Below are positions 14,665-43,514 of a DNA stretch of 49,800 nt, piece after piece. The notes below the pieces were generated by a model. That model did no database searches, had not been told where the DNA came from, and worked only from the letters and a program-made list of their open reading frames with translations. Within the stretch, counting starts at the first letter, position 1, and each line of letters starts with the position of its first letter. The position numbers and the translations under genes were made by a program. The DNA is from Muribaculaceae bacterium. GTDB lineage: Bacteria > Bacillota > Clostridia > Lachnospirales > Lachnospiraceae. Location of the stretch: positions 1 through 49,800 of the forward strand of contig JAMPCA010000011.1 of assembly GCA_023666425.1 (NCBI GenBank), read 5' to 3'.

Positions 14665-15459
14665 CTATATTCCCCGGGAAATCTCCAGACACTTCATCAC
14701 CGCTTCCATCACACAGCTCCGCAGCCCCTTCTCCTCAAGGACGCGCACTGCCTGAATCGTAGTGCCCGCCGGTGAGCAGACCATATCCTTGAGCTCTCCG
14801 GGGTGCGCTCCCGTCTCCAGCAGAAGCTTCGCGCTGCCGAGCACCGCATTCGCCGCAAATTTGTATGCCTGCTTCCGTGGCATACCGCCTGCCACCGCCG
14901 CATCCGCCATCGCCTCGATAAACAAAAACACATAGGCCGGGGAACTGCCGCTCACTGCCGTGACCGTGTCCATCAGGCTCTCCGGGACTATCTCCGTCTC
15001 CGAAAAGCCGCTGCAGATTTCCCGCACCATGGCAAACTCCTCCGCAGAGACCGCAGCCGATGCGCACATGCCGGTCATGCCTGCCTTCACCATCGCGGGG
15101 GTATTGGGCATCATACGAACCAGCTTTATGTCCCGGCCAAACTGCTCCGCAAGCCACTCCAGCGACTTTCCCGGCGCAATTGAGACTACAATGGCAGACT
15201 CCGCGACCGCATCCCGGATCTCCGCGATCACTTCCCCGTAAAACTGGGGCTTCACCGCAAGAAACAAAAGCTCTGCGAAAGCCGCCGTCTTTCGGTTATC
15301 CAGTGTCGTCTGTACGCCCAGCGCGCGCTTCTTCACCTCGAGGGTATCCGCGGTACGGCAGGAGGTCATCAGCTCCTGCGGCTCACATTTCCCGGAATCC
15401 AGTATCCCCTGCATCATGGCTGTGCCCATATTGCCGCAGCCGATAAATCCAATCTTCAT
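14665..15459 (-). CDS. proC: Pyrroline-5-carboxylate reductase
   Basis: 264 residues. NAD(P)-binding Rossmann motif at the N terminus (KIGFIGCGNMGTAMMQG), mid-protein LAVKPQ and MPNTPAMV, and the C-terminal signature VSGSSPAYVFLFIEAM ending in SPAGTTIQAV. It catalyses the last step of proline synthesis, reducing pyrroline-5-carboxylate with NAD(P)H. It starts 7 bp after the citrate synthase stop and has an AAGGAG site, so the two are probably one transcript, linking 2-oxoglutarate/glutamate supply to proline. Confidence 0.95.
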   Translation of the reverse strand: MKIGFIGCGNMGTAMMQGILDSGKCEPQELMTSCRTADTLEVKKRALGVQTTLDNRKTAAFAELLFLAVKPQFYGEVIAEIRDAVAESAIVVSIAPGKSLEWLAEQFGRDIKLVRMMPNTPAMVKAGMTGMCASAAVSAEEFAMVREICSGFSETEIVPESLMDTVTAVSGSSPAYVFLFIEAMADAAVAGGMPRKQAYKFAANAVLGSAKLLLETGAHPGELKDMVCSPAGTTIQAVRVLEEKGLRSCVMEAVMKCLEISRGI

Positions 15460-36964: not shown

Positions 36965-38524
36965 TCATGCTGTCTCCGCCCGCATAAGCACGGATCTTAG
37001 CAGACTCCGCAAAGACAGATCCAGCGCCCAGCGGGAACCTGTGGAAAGACCTCCCCTGCTTTCTGCCACAAGCAGCCCTGCAGCATCCTCAAAATATTTT
37101 TTGCTGATAAAGCGCATCCGAATCGGCGCGACCGTCGGCAAATCATTGTTTGAGGGCGGCGTGGGTTCTGGTATGTCCGGCTCCGGCTCATCCGGCCCGG
37201 GGTCGGGATCCTCCGGCTCATCCGGCTCGTCCGGGTCAGGATCATCGGGGTCGGAATCGTCCGGATCGTCGGGATCCTTCGGCTCGGGGTCGGGATCATC
37301 GGGGTCAGGATTGTCAGGATCCGGGTCGGAATCATCGAAGTCAGAATCGTCCGGATCCGGGTCGGAATCGTCCGGCGTCTCACCCGGGGGTAAAATTATT
37401 TTATCTTCTTCTTCCTCCTCCCCCGGCCACACCGCAAACAAATGCACCTGCGGCGCATATTTGAGTATCCACCCGTCTGTAATCTTCGCATCCAGCGCGT
37501 AGGATGCCTCCACGGCTCCCTGCGACAAGGCGTAGCCAACAGGGCTTTTTCCATCTTTCGTCCAGTTTTCCTTACGCATCCGCTTATCTTTTTGTCCGTA
37601 TACTGCCGTCTGCAGCACAAGCATGGTATCCGCCGCAGATAAATTCCTATGATACACAATCTGTATCTGAATGGGAGACGCCTCCGCCGTCAGAGTGCCC
37701 GCATCATTGACGTAAAAAGTACAGTCTATGCTGTCGCAGGACTTTATTCCCGTCCAGCCCTCAAAGGTGTAGCCTTTTTTCACCTCGGCGGAAGCTGTCA
37801 GCTTTGTGCCGTACAGATAATGTCCGCTTCCGGTCACCGCTTTGATTCCCGTGGACTTTTTGACTTTTATATCATAGAAAAGCCCTTTTACCTCCTTGTC
37901 AAAATAACTTTTGAGGGAGTTCGCGGCGGCGGCGTTCCAGTTTTCGGCTCCCGCGATTCCATCATAGTCGGTATAGACCTTCCCCGTAAAATTCCCGTTA
38001 TCGTCCATGCCGCCTTTGATATCATTCCCTCTCACCACGGTCATGCAGGCGTCCACTGTCATCGTACAGTTTCCCTCTTCCAGCGCCTGCTTTGCCTTTT
38101 CGTTCATTCTCTTTTTCAGACTGCTGAGCATCAGCGCGTAAAGATTGTACTCATACCCGGACTTCTGGCGCGAATCGACCCTTTTCATGTAGGAACCGCC
38201 CAGCTTGAAATAGATGTTTTGCAGCTTCTTTCCGCTCATGTCCCGCACGCTCACCTTCCAGCCCAGCGTCTTATAGCGTATATTCGTGCTTGCAATTTTT
38301 GCGCTCGTCGCATAGCAGATCTCGCCGTCCTTCTCGTTGACCTTCCAGAATTTCACGGAATTGCCATTTTCATTGTAATAAGCACAGGCATTGTCAAACG
38401 CATGGGCGTTCACCGTCGTGGGTGCGATCCCTCCAAACAACAGCGCCGCCGCCAGCATAAGGACAAACAGCCTCCTGCCGCCCGTTTTCAAAAAATGTAT
38501 CCCTCTCAAAAAATACCTCCTCAT
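36965..38524 (-). CDS. Secreted protein with InlB-type repeat and Asp/Pro-rich stalk, last gene of the Tad-like operon
   Basis: 519 residues. The signal peptide is at about 1-40 (basic start, LFVLMLAAALLFGG, then VNA-HAF). A central unknown domain (about 45-235) is followed by a GYTFEGWTG repeat (about 255-280) and an InlB/Flg_new-type domain (IVYHRNLSAADT to HLFAVW, about 288-370). A Glu patch leads to a stalk of Asp-Pro-Asp repeats (about 385-460). The C terminus is basic and lacks LPXTG or a membrane helix. The ATG overlaps the upstream stop by 4 bp; a TTG at 38509 with an ideal AGGAGG is an alternative start. Position suggests a pilus-associated adhesin or tip protein. Confidence 0.8.
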   Translation of the reverse strand: MRRYFLRGIHFLKTGGRRLFVLMLAAALLFGGIAPTTVNAHAFDNACAYYNENGNSVKFWKVNEKDGEICYATSAKIASTNIRYKTLGWKVSVRDMSGKKLQNIYFKLGGSYMKRVDSRQKSGYEYNLYALMLSSLKKRMNEKAKQALEEGNCTMTVDACMTVVRGNDIKGGMDDNGNFTGKVYTDYDGIAGAENWNAAAANSLKSYFDKEVKGLFYDIKVKKSTGIKAVTGSGHYLYGTKLTASAEVKKGYTFEGWTGIKSCDSIDCTFYVNDAGTLTAEASPIQIQIVYHRNLSAADTMLVLQTAVYGQKDKRMRKENWTKDGKSPVGYALSQGAVEASYALDAKITDGWILKYAPQVHLFAVWPGEEEEEDKIILPPGETPDDSDPDPDDSDFDDSDPDPDNPDPDDPDPEPKDPDDPDDSDPDDPDPDEPDEPEDPDPGPDEPEPDIPEPTPPSNNDLPTVAPIRMRFISKKYFEDAAGLLVAESRGGLSTGSRWALDLSLRSLLRSVLMRAETA

Positions 38525-39042
38525 TCTACCACCAGTGTCTTACTGCACTGGATTGTCTTTTTCATACCGTTCGGAAGATAGAACTGCTCCGTGATGCCCA
38601 CGGAAAGTATCCCCTGTTCCATATCGCAGGCATAAACCGATATGCGCACCTTTGAATCTGAGCGAAGCTGCCCGGTGAGATCCTGCTTCACAAAAGCCTC
38701 CACCTGCGCATCGCTGCATTTGCGCACCGGAACATACACAATCTCCCACTCGTCCTCCTCTGTCTCCCCATCTTCCTGCTTCTCTCCTGCCTTATCTTTC
38801 CCGCCTGTCTTGTCTGTCCTGCCTGTCTTTTTGTGTTTTGCTTCTTTCTCCTCCTCCTTTTCCTTTTTGACCCATGTAGGCACAAGCCGGACATAATACT
38901 CGTCCATATTTTGCTTTAACACGGTCGCAAGACAGTTTTCCATCTCATTTCTCCGGCTGGAGATACTGTAAATGGACAGACAGGAAACTACCGTGTAAAT
39001 GACGATAGCCGTACCCAAAAGCCCGAGAATGACCTGCTTCAT
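38521..39042 (-). CDS. TadE-like minor pilus protein with charged central segment
   Basis: 173 residues from the ATG at 39040-39042, supported by GGAGG 8 bases upstream; the longer frame lacks a site and overlaps the next upstream gene. One N-terminal transmembrane helix (about 4-25, VILGLLGTAIVIYTVVSCLSIYS), then an extracellular region. Residues about 58-98 are Lys/Glu-rich low complexity (KKEKEEEKEAKHKKTG), followed by a compact domain (YVPVRKCSDAQVEAFVKQDLTGQL to QFYLPNGMKKTIQ). The topology fits TadE/TadF-like minor pseudopilins; direct similarity is not obvious. It lies within the pilus operon, 1 bp after the 48-residue peptide. Confidence 0.72.
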   Translation of the reverse strand: MKQVILGLLGTAIVIYTVVSCLSIYSISSRRNEMENCLATVLKQNMDEYYVRLVPTWVKKEKEEEKEAKHKKTGRTDKTGGKDKAGEKQEDGETEEDEWEIVYVPVRKCSDAQVEAFVKQDLTGQLRSDSKVRISVYACDMEQGILSVGITEQFYLPNGMKKTIQCSKTLVVE

Positions 39043-39043
39043 A

Positions 39044-39190
39044 TCAGCATCCTCCGTTTCCCCAGAGCTGTACCATCTGTCCCAGCATCCCATCCGGGCA
39101 GAATACCATCTGCCCAACAATGGCAAAAAGCAAAAATGCACCAACTGCCGCAATCACGGCACTTCCGTATTCTCTGATCACCTCTTTCAT
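39044..39190 (-). CDS. 48-residue Flp-pilin-like membrane peptide
   Basis: Start ATG at 39188-39190 with GGAGG 6 bases upstream; stop at 39044-39046. The sequence begins MKEVIREYGSAVIAAVGAFLLFAI, with Glu-Tyr-Gly at residues 7-9 and one hydrophobic helix, ending with QMVQLWGNGGC. In Flp pilins the mature N terminus carries Glu5-Tyr6 before the helix; here the same pattern appears almost directly after the start Met, with no leader. Too short for most gene finders. Part of a run of tightly spaced genes. Confidence 0.75.
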   Translation of the reverse strand: MKEVIREYGSAVIAAVGAFLLFAIVGQMVFCPDGMLGQMVQLWGNGGC

Positions 39191-39191
39191 A

Positions 39192-39299
39192 CTACACCTC
39201 CGCCAATAGTGTCAAAAAAGTGCAAAACGCCGCCAGTATGCCCGTCCCAAGAAACAGCATGGCCGCTCCCGCTCCATATTCCTCAATCAACTGCTGCAT
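39192..39299 (-). CDS. 35-residue Flp-pilin-like membrane peptide
   Basis: Start ATG at 39297-39299 with GGAGGAG 6 bases upstream; stop at 39192-39194. The sequence begins MQQLIEEYGAGAAMLFLGTG, again Glu-Tyr-Gly at 7-9, then a single helix to the C terminus (TLLAEV). The stop is 1 bp before the next start codon. It is probably a membrane peptide or minor pilin; it has almost no extracellular part. Confidence 0.7.
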   Translation of the reverse strand: MQQLIEEYGAGAAMLFLGTGILAAFCTFLTLLAEV

Positions 39300-39310
39300 A
39301 TCTTCTCCTC

Positions 39311-39688
39311 CTATTTCGCATAGCCCCGAAAGGTATGCTCCTTCCGAAAGCCAAATATTTTCATTTCCAGCGGAAAGGTAAGCTCCACCCGCGCCATCGT
39401 CACGCTTTTTGTGTTCGATGGAAGCTGGGAAGCCCTCACGCAGCGCGTGGTTCCGCCGCCGTCATAGTAATAAGTGAGCGCCAGCTCACAGCCGGCTTCT
39501 TTTGCGCGGGTAAAGCATTCCTGCGCTACCCCCGAAGCAAAATGGCTGTTCTCGATCTCGTCCACCATCTGCGCCTGCAGATCCTGCGCCCCCATGACAT
39601 TCAGGTAGGCGGACAGAATCCCCAGCGCCGCCGAGGTCATAAAAAGAATCAAAAACACACCCAGAAAAGTCTTGATAACCTGACTCAT
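39311..39688 (-). CDS. TadE-like pilus protein
   Basis: 125 residues, ATG after GAGGAGG. One N-terminal helix (about 4-28, VIKTFLGVFLILFMTSAALGILSAY), followed by an extracellular domain of about 95 residues with two cysteines (Cys at about 58 and 67 in ECFTRAKEAGCELAL) that might form a disulfide, and VTMARVELTFPLEMKIFG near the end. The helix-then-domain layout, size and position directly after the platform gene are those of TadE/TadF minor pilins. Confidence 0.72.
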   Translation of the reverse strand: MSQVIKTFLGVFLILFMTSAALGILSAYLNVMGAQDLQAQMVDEIENSHFASGVAQECFTRAKEAGCELALTYYYDGGGTTRCVRASQLPSNTKSVTMARVELTFPLEMKIFGFRKEHTFRGYAK

Positions 39689-39697
39689 TTTTCCTCC

Positions 39698-41077
39698 TCA
39701 AATTCCAACTCCTGTGATAAAGGACAACATAAACACAGCCATATCCACCACCAGCTTAAAGGACGCCGTGAGCACCGGAGCCAGAAACAGCAGATACATA
39801 CCGCTGGAAAGGTTTGCCAGACGCTCCTTCTCCGCCGAATCCAGCATCGCAAGGTTCCGGTCGATCAGCTCGGAAAGCTGTCTGTCCGCCTGCAGACTGT
39901 GCCCCATGGATATGGAAAACAGCATACTCATCGCCGCATGAACCTCCGGAATCTCAAAGTCCTGCAAAAAGGCATGATAGGGCTCCGCCGCCTCCGGCTC
40001 CAGCTCCAGTCTGTCATTTAAGAGCAAAAGCTCCGATTCCAGCACTGCCGGGACATGCTCCACGGATTTGCGCATGGACATCTGCACATTCTCGCTCTGC
40101 AGAAGCAATACGATATCCAAAAGCCATGCCGGGAACGCACACTGAATACTCTTTCTGAGATTTTTTTCTGCCAGCCCGTGTCCCAGCCTGTGCTGGTTCA
40201 GCATTAAAAGGGAAAGTGCAAGCAGCGCCGCTGTCAGGACGCTTTTTCCAAACCAGAACGCCGCCCCCGCGCCCAGTATGCAGGGGAGTGCGAGAACCAG
40301 CGACAAGCGCTGCTCCTTTGCGGCACAATAATTTCTGTAGTCCTCCATGCGCTTTTTATCCTTAGGGTCACTGTCCAGATCCATCAAAAGCCAGTCCGGC
40401 GCCATCATCTTCTGCGCCCGGAGCAGAATCCTCTCGTCCAGCACCAGCATCACGGCTGTCAGTGCCTGACAGACCACATTTTTGCTGATATCCATGTCCA
40501 TGACCGGCATATACAGAATAATCCCGCAGATTATGAGTGATGCGGCAATGGACATCACAATGTCGGTAAACATTTTTGAGCGATCCTTCATTGCCAGCAG
40601 AATCCGGTTCTCCCAGCGTTTCTTGTCCGAAAGCAGCAGATCGACTGCGCGCTCGATCCGTCCGCCATAATTCTCAACATGGACAACAAAGTCATGTACT
40701 GTCGCAATCCTTGCACATGGGTATGCTTCCTCAATCCGCCTTAGGGATTCCCGCATCACGTCCGTATCGTCGTAGGTCATGCGCAGATGATCCAGCGCGT
40801 CGCGCACGGTTCTCTGCATACTGCCGCGCATGGCGGCCTCCACATTCTCGAGGGCAATATCCACCTTCTCCTCCTTGGAAAAGGCATAGAGGAGCGTATC
40901 CAGGTACTCCGCCGCATCCGTAAAGCGCCTCCTCTGCAAAAGCATCCCCTGATAGAGCCTGCAATGCTTTGGCAGCACCACCAGTCCATAGACGGTCAAA
41001 AGAAGCGCGGTGATCCAGTGCAGCCGAAGCAGGAGCTTAAGCATGTACACCGCCACCAGAAATGCCAGATAAATCAA
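39698..41077 (-). CDS. TadB/TadC-like membrane platform protein
   Basis: 459 residues, with TTG start (41075-41077) behind GGAGGTGGAGG; the TTGA overlaps the ATPase stop by 4 bp. Hydrophobic helices at about 5-35, 175-200, 255-290 and 430-455 flank cytoplasmic helical regions typical of the T2SSF fold. It should form the inner-membrane platform on which the ATPase works. Tad systems normally encode two such proteins (TadB and TadC, about 300 residues each); here there is one longer protein. Confidence 0.82.
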   Translation of the reverse strand: MIYLAFLVAVYMLKLLLRLHWITALLLTVYGLVVLPKHCRLYQGMLLQRRRFTDAAEYLDTLLYAFSKEEKVDIALENVEAAMRGSMQRTVRDALDHLRMTYDDTDVMRESLRRIEEAYPCARIATVHDFVVHVENYGGRIERAVDLLLSDKKRWENRILLAMKDRSKMFTDIVMSIAASLIICGIILYMPVMDMDISKNVVCQALTAVMLVLDERILLRAQKMMAPDWLLMDLDSDPKDKKRMEDYRNYCAAKEQRLSLVLALPCILGAGAAFWFGKSVLTAALLALSLLMLNQHRLGHGLAEKNLRKSIQCAFPAWLLDIVLLLQSENVQMSMRKSVEHVPAVLESELLLLNDRLELEPEAAEPYHAFLQDFEIPEVHAAMSMLFSISMGHSLQADRQLSELIDRNLAMLDSAEKERLANLSSGMYLLFLAPVLTASFKLVVDMAVFMLSFITGVGI

Positions 41078-42150
41078 GCCTCCACCTCCTTCTCACCGGA
41101 AAGCTCCCGCTCCAGCTCCGCACTCACCCACGGATCCGAAATCTGTGCCCGGGCAAAGCGTCCCCGCAGGCTCTCGGGAAGCGTCTTTATTACCAGTCCT
41201 CCGTCCTGCACTACAGAAATCACATGATTTTTCCCCTTTTCCCTCAGGAAAAAACAGACCTGGTCAATGTAGCGGTATACCTTGTGATTTTCCCCGCGCT
41301 TTTTCCGGATCAGAACGCCAATATCCACCGCCTGATAGACGTCATTTTCCAGACGGTCCGCGTCCACCCGGCTCTCCAGCATATTCAGGATGCGGTCCGG
41401 GATATTGCGCACATCGTCGGTGTGTAGTGTCGTCATGCCTGAGACTCCTGTGGACCAGCTCTCAAGGAGATATTTCACCTCCTTGGAACGCGCCTCCGAG
41501 AGCATGATCCAGCCGGGATTCAGCCTCAGACTTGCCTTGATTGCGTCGGCATAACTAAACAGTTCCGGCTCGACCCGAAGCTCGATACAGTCCTTTCCGG
41601 GATTCGTCACAGCGTAGCGAAGCTCCATCGTATCCTCAATGGTAATGACACGCTCATTTCCCGGAATATAGCCCGAAAAAAACTTGACGCACTCCGTCTT
41701 GCCGATCCCCGGCATCCCGCAGAAAATAAAGTTCATCCGCGCTCTCACACAGTTGATCAGGAGGGCGAGTATCTCCCTGCTGCAATAGTTCTCCTCTAAG
41801 GCCTTTTTCGCGTTCAGGCGGATCACCGGGGGCGTCTTTCTTATGCTGATGCTTCGCCCGGAGCGCGCCACCGACTCGTGCAGCACCGTCACACGCAGCT
41901 CTGTCGTCTCCGCCTCCAGCTCCGGGCTTCTCTTGTTAAACTGACGGCTCACCACATTCGAGATCCGCTGGGTAAACTGCTCCACAAAGGCAGATGTCAG
42001 ATTCTCATCCACATAGGCCTGGCTCACCCGGTAGCGCTCGTTGTAGATATTCGTCAGCCACAGCTCCCGCCCGTTGTAGTCCACGTCCGTGATTTCCCCG
42101 TTGGTGATAAATTTCCACAAGGGGCCAAAATATTCTTTTCCCAGTACCAT
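41074..42150 (-). CDS. TadA/CpaF-type secretion ATPase
   Basis: 358 residues. Walker A GMPGIGKTE (about 144-152), Asp box VITIEDTMELRY, Walker B-like LNPGWIMLSEARSKEVKYLL and His box MTTLHTDDVRNIPDRI are in the order of VirB11/TadA ATPases. The Walker B segment differs from the usual LRMRPDRIIVGEVRG but keeps its Glu. It powers pilus assembly at the cytoplasmic face. It starts 9 bp after the pilin-like gene and overlaps the platform gene by 4 bp. Confidence 0.93.
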   Translation of the reverse strand: MVLGKEYFGPLWKFITNGEITDVDYNGRELWLTNIYNERYRVSQAYVDENLTSAFVEQFTQRISNVVSRQFNKRSPELEAETTELRVTVLHESVARSGRSISIRKTPPVIRLNAKKALEENYCSREILALLINCVRARMNFIFCGMPGIGKTECVKFFSGYIPGNERVITIEDTMELRYAVTNPGKDCIELRVEPELFSYADAIKASLRLNPGWIMLSEARSKEVKYLLESWSTGVSGMTTLHTDDVRNIPDRILNMLESRVDADRLENDVYQAVDIGVLIRKKRGENHKVYRYIDQVCFFLREKGKNHVISVVQDGGLVIKTLPESLRGRFARAQISDPWVSAELERELSGEKEVEA

Positions 42151-42159
42151 GCCATACCT

Positions 42160-42345
42160 CTAATTCCCGGAAATTCCGGTATTGGCATTCGCCTGTGCAA
42201 TAAAATTGTCAATCAGATTGGAAAATGCGGTCCCGATCGGGCCGCCCGCGTCATTACCGACAACCGCCGTAATGACCAGAATCACTGCCAGAATTGCTAC
42301 TACTGTAATCAGTACGCCTCCGTACTCCTGAAAAATCTCTTTCAT
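42160..42345 (-). CDS. 61-residue Flp-pilin-like major subunit candidate
   Basis: Start ATG at 42343-42345, chosen from the AAAGGA site and from similarity to the 35- and 48-residue peptides; a longer in-frame ATG at 42420 lies in the leader dyad. The sequence begins MKEIFQEYGGVLITVVAILAVIL, Glu-Tyr-Gly at 7-9, helix to about residue 30, then a short hydrophilic tail (NDAGGPIGTAFSNLIDNF). First gene of the operon, as usual for the main Flp pilin. Confidence 0.8.
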   Translation of the reverse strand: MKEIFQEYGGVLITVVAILAVILVITAVVGNDAGGPIGTAFSNLIDNFIAQANANTGISGN

Positions 42346-42404
42346 TCTTCTTATCCTTTCTCCATGCTGTGCCTGCCACATGCATCTTCGAAAGGCTTTT
42401 TGGA

Positions 42405-42446
42405 CATAAGAAAAATGCATATGACAACATATGCATAAATCTTATG
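42405..42446. promoter_or_regulatory. 42-bp nested dyad in the leader of the Tad-like operon
   Basis: Centred at 42425.5: CATAAG (42405-42410) with CTTATG (42441-42446) outside, ATGCATATG (42415-42423) with CATATGCAT (42428-42436) inside, 4-nt loop. It lies about 25 nt after the likely transcription start and about 60 nt before the first pilin codon. On the minus strand the inner stem is followed by TTTTC, so attenuation, an operator or a terminator for the upstream receptor gene are all possible. Confidence 0.6.
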
Positions 42447-42469: not shown

Positions 42470-42497
42470 ATTATATACGATTTTTTATGTTTGTAAA
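42470..42497 (-). promoter_or_regulatory. Sigma-A promoter of the Tad-like operon
   Basis: Minus strand TTTACA (42492-42497), 16-bp spacer, perfect TATAAT (42470-42475), in AT-rich DNA. Confidence 0.65.
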
Positions 42498-42521: not shown

Positions 42522-43514
42522 TTATCTTTTTGTCTGAATATATCTCAGAAGCTCACTGGCCGTCTGGTCGTTCTCCTCATTGCCCGCCTGAATCTCCTCC
42601 ATATATCCGTTGATCGAGGTGACATTCTGCGTCATATCGCTGATAGCGGAAGACGCCTCCTGCGCAGCCGTGGACATCGCCATCACGGAATTGGCAGAAG
42701 TCCCGACCTGCTCTAACAGATTCCTGGACATCTGGGCGAAATCCTGCATCTTATCGTACATATTCTTGGAATCGTTCTGGTACTTATTACCGACGTCCAC
42801 CAGCTCGCCGTAGCTGCCGATGATCTTCTCCTTCATAAAATCGACTACCTTGGCCGCCTCATTGGCCAGATCCGACACTGCCGTGATAACCGTGTTGGAA
42901 ATCTCCTTAATCTGGCTCGCTGTCGCGCTGGAATCCGCCGCAAGCTTTGTGATCTCATCTGCAACCACGGCAAATCCTCTTCCCGCCTCGCCCGCTCTCG
43001 CCGCCTCAATCGAAGCGTTGAGCGCCAGCAGATTGGTCTGGTCTGCAATCTCCAGAATATTCGCTGTCAGATCCGTGATCTTCTGCGCCTCGTTCGACTG
43101 TTTGATCTTCTCTTTTAAGGCCTGCTCCACAGCCACTGCGCGCTCCTCAACCTCCTTGCGCTCCTTCTCGGATCTCGACATGATCTCGAGAGCCTCCTGG
43201 TTGCTGTTCTCGGCGTATTTTGCGCCGTCCTCCGCCTCCTCGTTCATCTCCTGGAAGGAAGTGTTCATCCCCTCCATCACATTGGATATCTCTGTGATAT
43301 TCGCGGTCATCTCCTGCATCGTCGCGGAAAATTCCTGCATGGTGCTGGAAACCTGCGTGGAGTTCTCCACCGTCATGCTCAGCTTGTCCCCTACCTTGTT
43401 CAACGATTCTGCAAGTTTTCGTGCATAATTATCAACCTGTGCAAGAAGCTCCTGCAACTCTCTCTGCTCCTGCAGCGCACTGTCTTCTTTTGCCTTACTG
43501 CCAAATAACCCCAT
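42522..43514 (-). CDS. Cytoplasmic methyl-accepting chemotaxis protein
   Basis: 330 residues, no transmembrane segment and no ligand domain. The protein is one long helical hairpin with the conserved tip [33 protein letters not shown] (about 155-190), which contacts CheA/CheW. N-terminal [11 protein letters not shown] is followed by helix. It probably forms soluble signalling arrays or pairs with another sensor. Its sigma-A promoter is TTTACG, 17 bp, TATAAT at about 43567-43595. Presence supports motility or taxis signalling. No chemotaxis neighbours are in the window. Confidence 0.92.

Follow-up and report, generated by a model that had tools for sequence, protein, structure and literature searches.

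The DNA considered here, referred to below as the window, is a stretch of 49,800 nucleotides (positions 1 to 49,800 of contig JAMPCA010000011.1, Muribaculaceae bacterium assembly GCA_023666425.1, placed by GTDB in the family Lachnospiraceae), whose minus strand carries at 36965-42345 a block of eight genes. This block rather probably encodes a small Tad-derived (type 4c-like) pilus or pseudopilus machine that displays a linked exported protein. A bolder proposal, put forward tentatively, is that it represents a type IV filament branch whose subunits start as mature proteins and are assembled without a prepilin peptidase, and which occurs in Lachnospiraceae, in Erysipelotrichaceae and perhaps in a reduced-genome gut order of Bacilli. 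The genes follow each other in this order, lengths being given in amino acids (aa):

42160..42345, minus strand: first putative mini-pilin, p61, 61 aa, beginning MKEIFQEYGG, with a single hydrophobic helix from about residue 11; homologues known, kept upstream of the ATPase in relatives
41074..42150, minus strand: secretion or pilus ATPase, 358 aa, TadA/VirB11-like (Pfam T2SSE)
39698..41077, minus strand: platform protein, 459 aa, TTG start, four-base overlap with the ATPase gene; probable TadB-TadC fusion (hhalign)
39311..39688, minus strand: TadE-like protein, 125 aa, likewise without a separate leader (conservation; hhalign)
39192..39299, minus strand: putative mini-pilin p35, 35 aa (20 aligned members; dN/dS)
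39044..39190, minus strand: putative mini-pilin p48, 48 aa (26 aligned members; dN/dS)
38521..39042, minus strand: second TadE-like protein, 173 aa, ATG start (hhalign; conserved in relatives)
36965..38524, minus strand: exported protein, 519 aa, or 514 aa if started from the TTG at 38509 (Pfam PF18998; 26-row alignment)

Since the successive gaps amount to only 9, -4, 9, 11, 1, 1 and -4 bases, the eight genes very probably form one transcript. An alternative TTG start of the 173-aa protein (210 aa) would overlap p48.

The preliminary description of this DNA had singled out the peptides of 61, 48 and 35 residues for carrying Glu-Tyr-Gly (EYG) at residues 7-9, and their frames, lengths and positions were found as described. 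Among 2168 starts in the window (frames of at least 30 residues), EYG occupies residues 7-9 in these three only, and 200 residue shuffles gave on average 0.3 such starts and never more than 3. A chance origin of the three was rejected by the shuffle test, their conservation and the ratio of nonsynonymous to synonymous substitution rates (dN/dS). Each of them is preceded by a purine-rich stretch resembling a ribosome-binding site. The p61 search gave 183 homologues; among the 120 listed, the closest ones, Gly9 is present in all and Glu7 in 119. Profiles of the p61, p48 and p35 families are mutually related, aligning Met1 on Met1 (hhalign 96.9 and 91.1). The first pilins show two clear subtypes (labelled A and B), MKEIFQEYGG and MEQVMKHYGNAIL, the one in locus L062 being aberrant. 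Loci L063 and L064 have a third subtype, in which the first pilin-like protein begins MPTESSEVGSGFVKIFYG, so that the segment ahead of the helix is longer but closes with the same YG.

Thirty loci of relatives were retrieved, making 31 with the window, and the same gene order is kept in them: pilin, ATPase, platform, TadE-like protein, p35, p48, usually a fourth YG-protein, TadE-like protein and exported protein. A first pilin with the motif start occurs in 28 of the 31 loci, p48 in 26 and p35 in 20; the fourth YG-protein (55-167 aa) occurs in 22 and is absent from the window and from its nearest relative, L039. As the locus sets were gathered largely by a motif requiring the Gly, the absences include variants (MSLEFVIGELG in L058) and contig ends. 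The length of p48 is 47-50 aa, mostly 48, in all 26 aligned rows. Between the window and L039, dN/dS (NG86) is 0.12 for p61, 0.05 for p48 and 0.14 for p35, compared with 0.10 for the ATPase and 0.11 for the platform, values that are rough because dS is high (1.2-2.1 for these genes). The two smallest frames, whose standing had been made to depend on their conservation, are thus kept in relatives under purifying selection, and are therefore real genes. With regard to distribution, the compact ATPase is found in 30 of 35 same-genus relatives and in none of 24 genomes of other families in the order (E <=1e-67), and, at E <=1e-50 and with a completeness filter of 95%, in 42 of the 296 Lachnospiraceae genomes surveyed, the window's own included. 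A homologue of the platform protein, 95% identical, is present in a Blautia sp. metagenome bin.

The ATPase belongs by its sequence to the T2SSE superfamily (Pfam T2SSE 2.1e-18, over the cut-off) and qualifies as a TadA-type extension ATPase. Its NCBIfam matches, to VirB11 (7.5e-28), TadA (1.4e-21) and TrbB, all lie below the families' own cut-offs, and profile matches in the PDB include VirB11 (the best) and CpaF (1.5e-18). In an unrooted tree (82 of 122 rows, with every third of 59 Bacilli rows; drawn with a midpoint root) it groups with the ATPases of Erysipelotrichaceae and Bacilli apart from conventional TadA with a support of 100; the window group as a single clade is supported at only 42, and some end branches are long. 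The platform protein of the window has no Pfam or NCBIfam match, and T2SSF is matched by 4 of 42 members of its family (best 5.4e-5). Its residues 20-231 align with a TadB-like family of Erysipelotrichaceae (hhalign 86.0) and residues 308-406 with a TadC-like one (98.4), labels that we gave to the Erysipelotrichaceae and Bacilli genes from gene order and neighbours; to the conventional platform proteins of its own genome hhalign gives only 7.4 and 33.3. Its AlphaFold2 (AF2) model has a predicted local distance difference test score (pLDDT) of 82.5, and Foldseek returned no significant match and no close whole-chain match. From these alignments the platform is probably a TadB-TadC fusion. TadB and TadC are derived, according to an excerpt of PMC10191384, from the fission of a two-domain ancestor, and the two seem to be fused in the window, a state either kept or regained.

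Both TadE-like proteins are conserved in relatives and share their N-terminus, M1 to M1 (hhalign 88.7), and the 125-aa protein aligns with a TadE-like family of the Bacilli relatives (90.9). In the earlier inventory of one ATPase, one platform and two TadE-like proteins, the ATPase is borne out by T2SSE and the 125-aa protein has this profile link; Pfam TadE matches neither the 125-aa nor the 173-aa protein, and the window's platform lacks a family match as stated above. The DUF5411 protein of the Bacilli-type loci described below is perhaps a TadE-like pilus protein as well (hhalign 74.6 to the 173-aa protein). The view that this set is complete and minimal did not survive, the exported protein having been left out of it and relatives having more YG-type and TadE-like subunits.

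The 519-aa protein has, by eye, a signal-peptide-like N-terminus, followed by a conserved beta-rich domain, an InlB B-repeat (Pfam PF18998, 1.7e-6), a linker that is disordered, acidic and rich in proline, and, at the C-terminus, a conserved tag. Its AF2 model has a pLDDT of 78.6; Foldseek gave no close whole-chain match, and the best hit, the mannose-binding surface protein YwfG (1.8e-5, TM-score <0.2), was not used as evidence. The tag, RFIS..YFED..GGL..S.W, spans about 45 residues (window 36977-37120, minus strand) and occurs once in the window's genome. Of the 36 genomes searched, 17 have it, and in 12 of these 17 it lies within about 15 kb of a compact ATPase on the same contig; it may be a docking or sorting signal. 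The same tag recurs in open frames of relatives of about 480 to 1900 residues.

The case for a Tad-derived machine probably holds, then, on the conserved order, the T2SSE ATPase, the TadB- and TadC-like platform matches, the kinship among the mini-pilins and the proximity of the tag to the ATPase. What we infer beyond this concerns filament formation, the roles of the subunits, their processing state and the part played by the exported protein. The ATPase, presumably a hexamer, would sit beneath the fused TadB-TadC platform and drive the single-helix mini-pilins out of the membrane, where they would form a thin pilus or a short pseudopilus. The main subunit would probably be p61, with p48, p35 and the fourth YG-protein of relatives as minor subunits, whereas the two TadE-like proteins would carry outside domains. 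The exported protein, with its beta-rich, possibly adhesin-like body and its tag, would probably be a tip, cargo or surface partner. The subunits would be made with at most eight residues ahead of the invariant Gly9 and no separate long leader.

That these subunits need no leader processing is possible, and two of its premises were upheld, namely that no upstream leader is conserved and that no peptidase gene is linked. Cleavage behind Gly9 in trans would nevertheless agree with a published leader definition. Regarding the first, no conserved upstream start adds a Gly-ending leader, and the upstream stretches, compared by eye, are unconserved beyond the nearest relatives. Upstream of the first pilin, an in-frame stop comes within 30 codons in 23 of 28 loci, and in 13 of the 28 no start codon follows it; in-frame upstream stops are also found in 20 of 26 p48 loci and 14 of 20 p35 loci. 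A longer start of the first pilin (86 aa, at 42420) was rejected, as a stop interrupts the extension in the nearest relative and the extension is unconserved. A longer p61 N-terminus was likewise discarded, since extra residues appear in only 7 of 120 among the homologues listed and share no leader. Regarding the second, neither the operon nor the window holds a prepilin peptidase of family A24, as had been noted before; the three A24 genes of the genome lie on another contig, where one neighbours a type IV pilin and the other two belong to a conventional Tad locus. No A24 gene is near the compact locus in the 30 same-genus relatives, the contig being shared only in two of them (G016 and G035), at more than 380 kb. 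Nor was a dedicated TadV, which can be encoded apart, found in the window's block.

Prepilin peptidases are, on the other hand, ubiquitous in the family: an A24 match turned up in each of the 296 genomes surveyed, and in 295 of them it is over the cut-off. Peptidase loss had to be abandoned as proof of independence, and co-occurrence therefore cannot decide the matter, leaving room for cleavage in trans. We regard two routes as about equally probable: assembly of the uncut subunits with Met1 kept, and removal of the residues up to and including Gly9 by a peptidase from another locus. If the subunits are not cut, Met1 and the short charged N-terminus would replace the freed N-terminus and Glu5. 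In the register adopted by the preliminary description, EYG corresponds to residues Glu5-Tyr6-Gly7 of the mature Flp protein. A profile built from 22 true Flp pilins of clostridia kept this register, at no significance, for p61, subtype A and p35 (1.0), and did not choose it for subtype B or p48.

In the cleaved case, which is a serious if somewhat doubtful possibility, the machine would be the same, with the first nine residues as a very short class III leader removed after Gly9 by TadV- or PilD-type peptidases encoded elsewhere, leaving pilins without Glu5. In an excerpt of PMC10191384, class III leaders are defined as hydrophilic or neutral, of variable length, and closed by a Gly or Ala that is followed by 20-25 residues, mainly hydrophobic ones, with Glu5 present in these pilins "often, but not always". 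The mini-pilins agree with that definition, as Gly9 is followed immediately by a stretch of about 20 hydrophobic residues. Gly9 occurs in all of the 120 p61 homologues listed and in 28 of 28 first-pilin loci, where position 7 varies (E in 13, H in 14, Q in 1), and segments ahead of the Gly are longer in L058, L060, L063 and L064; the A24 match in every surveyed family genome points the same way. Among the closest homologues, however, Glu7 is nearly as constant as Gly9, and for p48, p35 and the fourth family the search motif itself accounts in part for the invariance of Gly9. Moreover, the segment ahead of Gly9 hardly varies in length, has hydrophobic residues at 4-5 and is rarely positive (above zero in 9 of 96), although its charge argues little either way because the leader of the Flp1-like pilin in the same genome is acidic as well. 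The cut would also take away Glu5, which conventional substrates of the genome retain (by eye), and the TadE-like proteins sometimes lack the Gly, position 9 being Ser or Cys, for example, in some subtype B members.

The relatives outside the family bear on both possibilities. A related Tad-like locus of Erysipelotrichaceae and uncultured Bacilli (L080-L140) includes genes for DUF5411, CpaB-like and CpaE-like proteins. The CpaB-type assignment follows from TIGR03177 (1.9e-7, below the cut-off) and SAF (2.9e-4, over the cut-off), and the CpaE-like label from position and a CbiA match at 0.023. The motif was picked up by a script scan in 33 of the 61 loci, gene lists being examined for 14 of the 61. 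The pilins of these Bacilli relatives begin MKEATG or MREAIG, which may be ordinary six-residue leaders and would favour cleavage; these relatives were dropped as support for leaderless pilins, and the leaderless claim is therefore not extended to the Bacilli pilins. A single A24 match was found in 47 of the 50 genomes of Erysipelotrichaceae and Bacilli that carry the related locus. The ATPase of this locus type is present in 121 of 146 genomes of one order of Bacilli, that of genome G090 (90% completeness filter; ATPase match <1e-100, so that two genomes with matches of only about 1e-33 were counted as without the locus). A24 is matched in 116 of these 121 genomes, in accordance with a cleaved leader, but the peptidase does not track the locus, being missing from 5 of the 121 genomes with it and from 3 of the 25 without; incomplete assemblies could explain the missing matches. 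With or without the locus, nearly all genomes of this order have just one A24 match, whose frame length marks it as PilD-type; the locus thus brings no peptidase of its own.

The Tad-derived reading itself must be weighed against the possibility that no filament is formed. The SpoIIIA apparatus of sporulation uses an ATPase of the T2SSE type together with a T2SSF-like protein and has no prepilins, and the block might, though this is unlikely, encode a membrane export or envelope complex of that manner. Several results count here against a pilus: the profiles of the mini-pilins show no significant homology to Flp (hhalign 20.2 at best, and 2.4, compared with 96.5 between Flp and Flp1_like), PF04964 and PF16982 match none of 24 mini-pilin members, so that a Flp-family major pilin was not recognised, and what is left are tiny single-helix proteins without detectable pilin homology or a separate leader. 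The presence of the exported protein within the same block could also suit such a complex. The relatives, however, have the CpaB-like and CpaE-like genes typical of Tad loci, and the NCBIfam model spore_III_AA, the one SpoIIIA family searched, gave only 14 bits on the ATPase. Finally, a type IV secretion remnant around a VirB11-like ATPase is very improbable: VirB11 is indeed the best NCBIfam and PDB profile match of the ATPase, but no other protein of such systems (VirB4/VirD4, channel partners) was recognised among the nine region proteins scanned, the search being confined to these, and the partner of the ATPase is a probable T2SSF-type platform, a component that type IV secretion systems are not known to have.

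Comparison with known machines places the block close to the Tad/Flp (type 4c) pilus, with which it shares the ATPase, a probable TadB/TadC-type platform, TadE-like proteins and a single-helix pilin of about 60 residues with the EYG motif ahead of the helix. Unlike that pilus, it has a fused platform, several related mini-pilins down to 35 residues without a separate leader, and a linked exported protein with a C-terminal tag, and no TadV, TadZ, TadG or CpaB gene was recognised in the block. It would work like a Tad pilus but is not filed as a member of the Tad pili, because a Flp family match and a linked TadV were sought and not found and because its pilins may or may not have a class III leader. 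Among monoderms, the Com pilus and the SpoIIIA apparatus are also machines of the T2SSE/T2SSF type that lack a secretin. They differ from the block in that Com has leadered pilins and a peptidase of the PilD type, and SpoIIIA a different set of subunits. An excerpt of Imam et al. (2011, PMC3244431) reports tad-like loci of Clostridia (C. kluyveri, C. cellulolyticum, C. bolteae, C. sp. L2-50 and D. hafniense) in which, as in the window's block, no protein has an apparent prepilin signal; by that description, which was the basis of the comparison, they have tadV, tadZ and rcpC, three genes without a recognised counterpart in the block. A search of open-licence PubMed Central articles, by title and beginning of the abstract, found none that deals with leaderless pilins, with pilins that need no peptidase, or with the Tad pili of Lachnospiraceae or RF39.

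The window's genome also carries a conventional Tad-like locus (L009, 5783-15258 of contig C11), which holds two A24 peptidases and adjoins a flagellin-like gene; its TadV gene is at 14737-15258, and the PilD gene of the genome is in L001. Its components parallel those of the window's block, being T2SSE, T2SSF and TadE-like proteins and a small Flp1-like pilin, but here the Flp1_like pilin is leadered and is accompanied by the two peptidases, a TadZ-like protein, DUF5702 and an FHA protein, and its ATPase lies across a fully supported split of the tree from that of the window. The leader of this pilin ends DEDG before IGVVEM, and the locus has two T2SSF proteins. Leadered Flp1_like pilins were found in 23 more of 30 loci of this and related genomes, picked by a pattern requiring a leader, and 23 rows were aligned. 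The contrast with the mini-pilins therefore lies within one cell.

Upstream of the first pilin, at 42470..42497 on the minus strand, stands a promoter-like site, TTTACA-16-TATAAT (11 of 12 matches), sites of this kind numbering 4 in the region against 5.0 in shuffles, a count not above expectation. A stem-loop of nine pairs with a T run (window 42415-42436, minus strand) lies between this site and p61 and would therefore fall in the 5' leader of the transcript, where it is possibly a conditional terminator; the number of such sites with a T run is not above that in shuffles either. Directly upstream of the operon (window 42522-43514, minus strand) is a gene that by eye looks like a soluble methyl-accepting chemotaxis protein.

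Prepilin cleavage is regarded as a universal early step in type IV filament assembly. If the subunits of the window's machine do work uncut, the rule that defines these filaments would be broken, and the machine would reveal the real purpose of the leader and its peptidase. Even if they are cut in trans after Gly9, the block would stand for a surface system, widespread in common gut bacteria and without a name, that has a conserved exported partner and includes two genes of just 35 and 48 codons. Pfam and NCBIfam fail to recognise its pilins or its platform, and leader-based pilin finders presumably miss the pilins too. This small, compact, pilus-like cluster may accordingly represent an overlooked branch of bacterial pilus machines.

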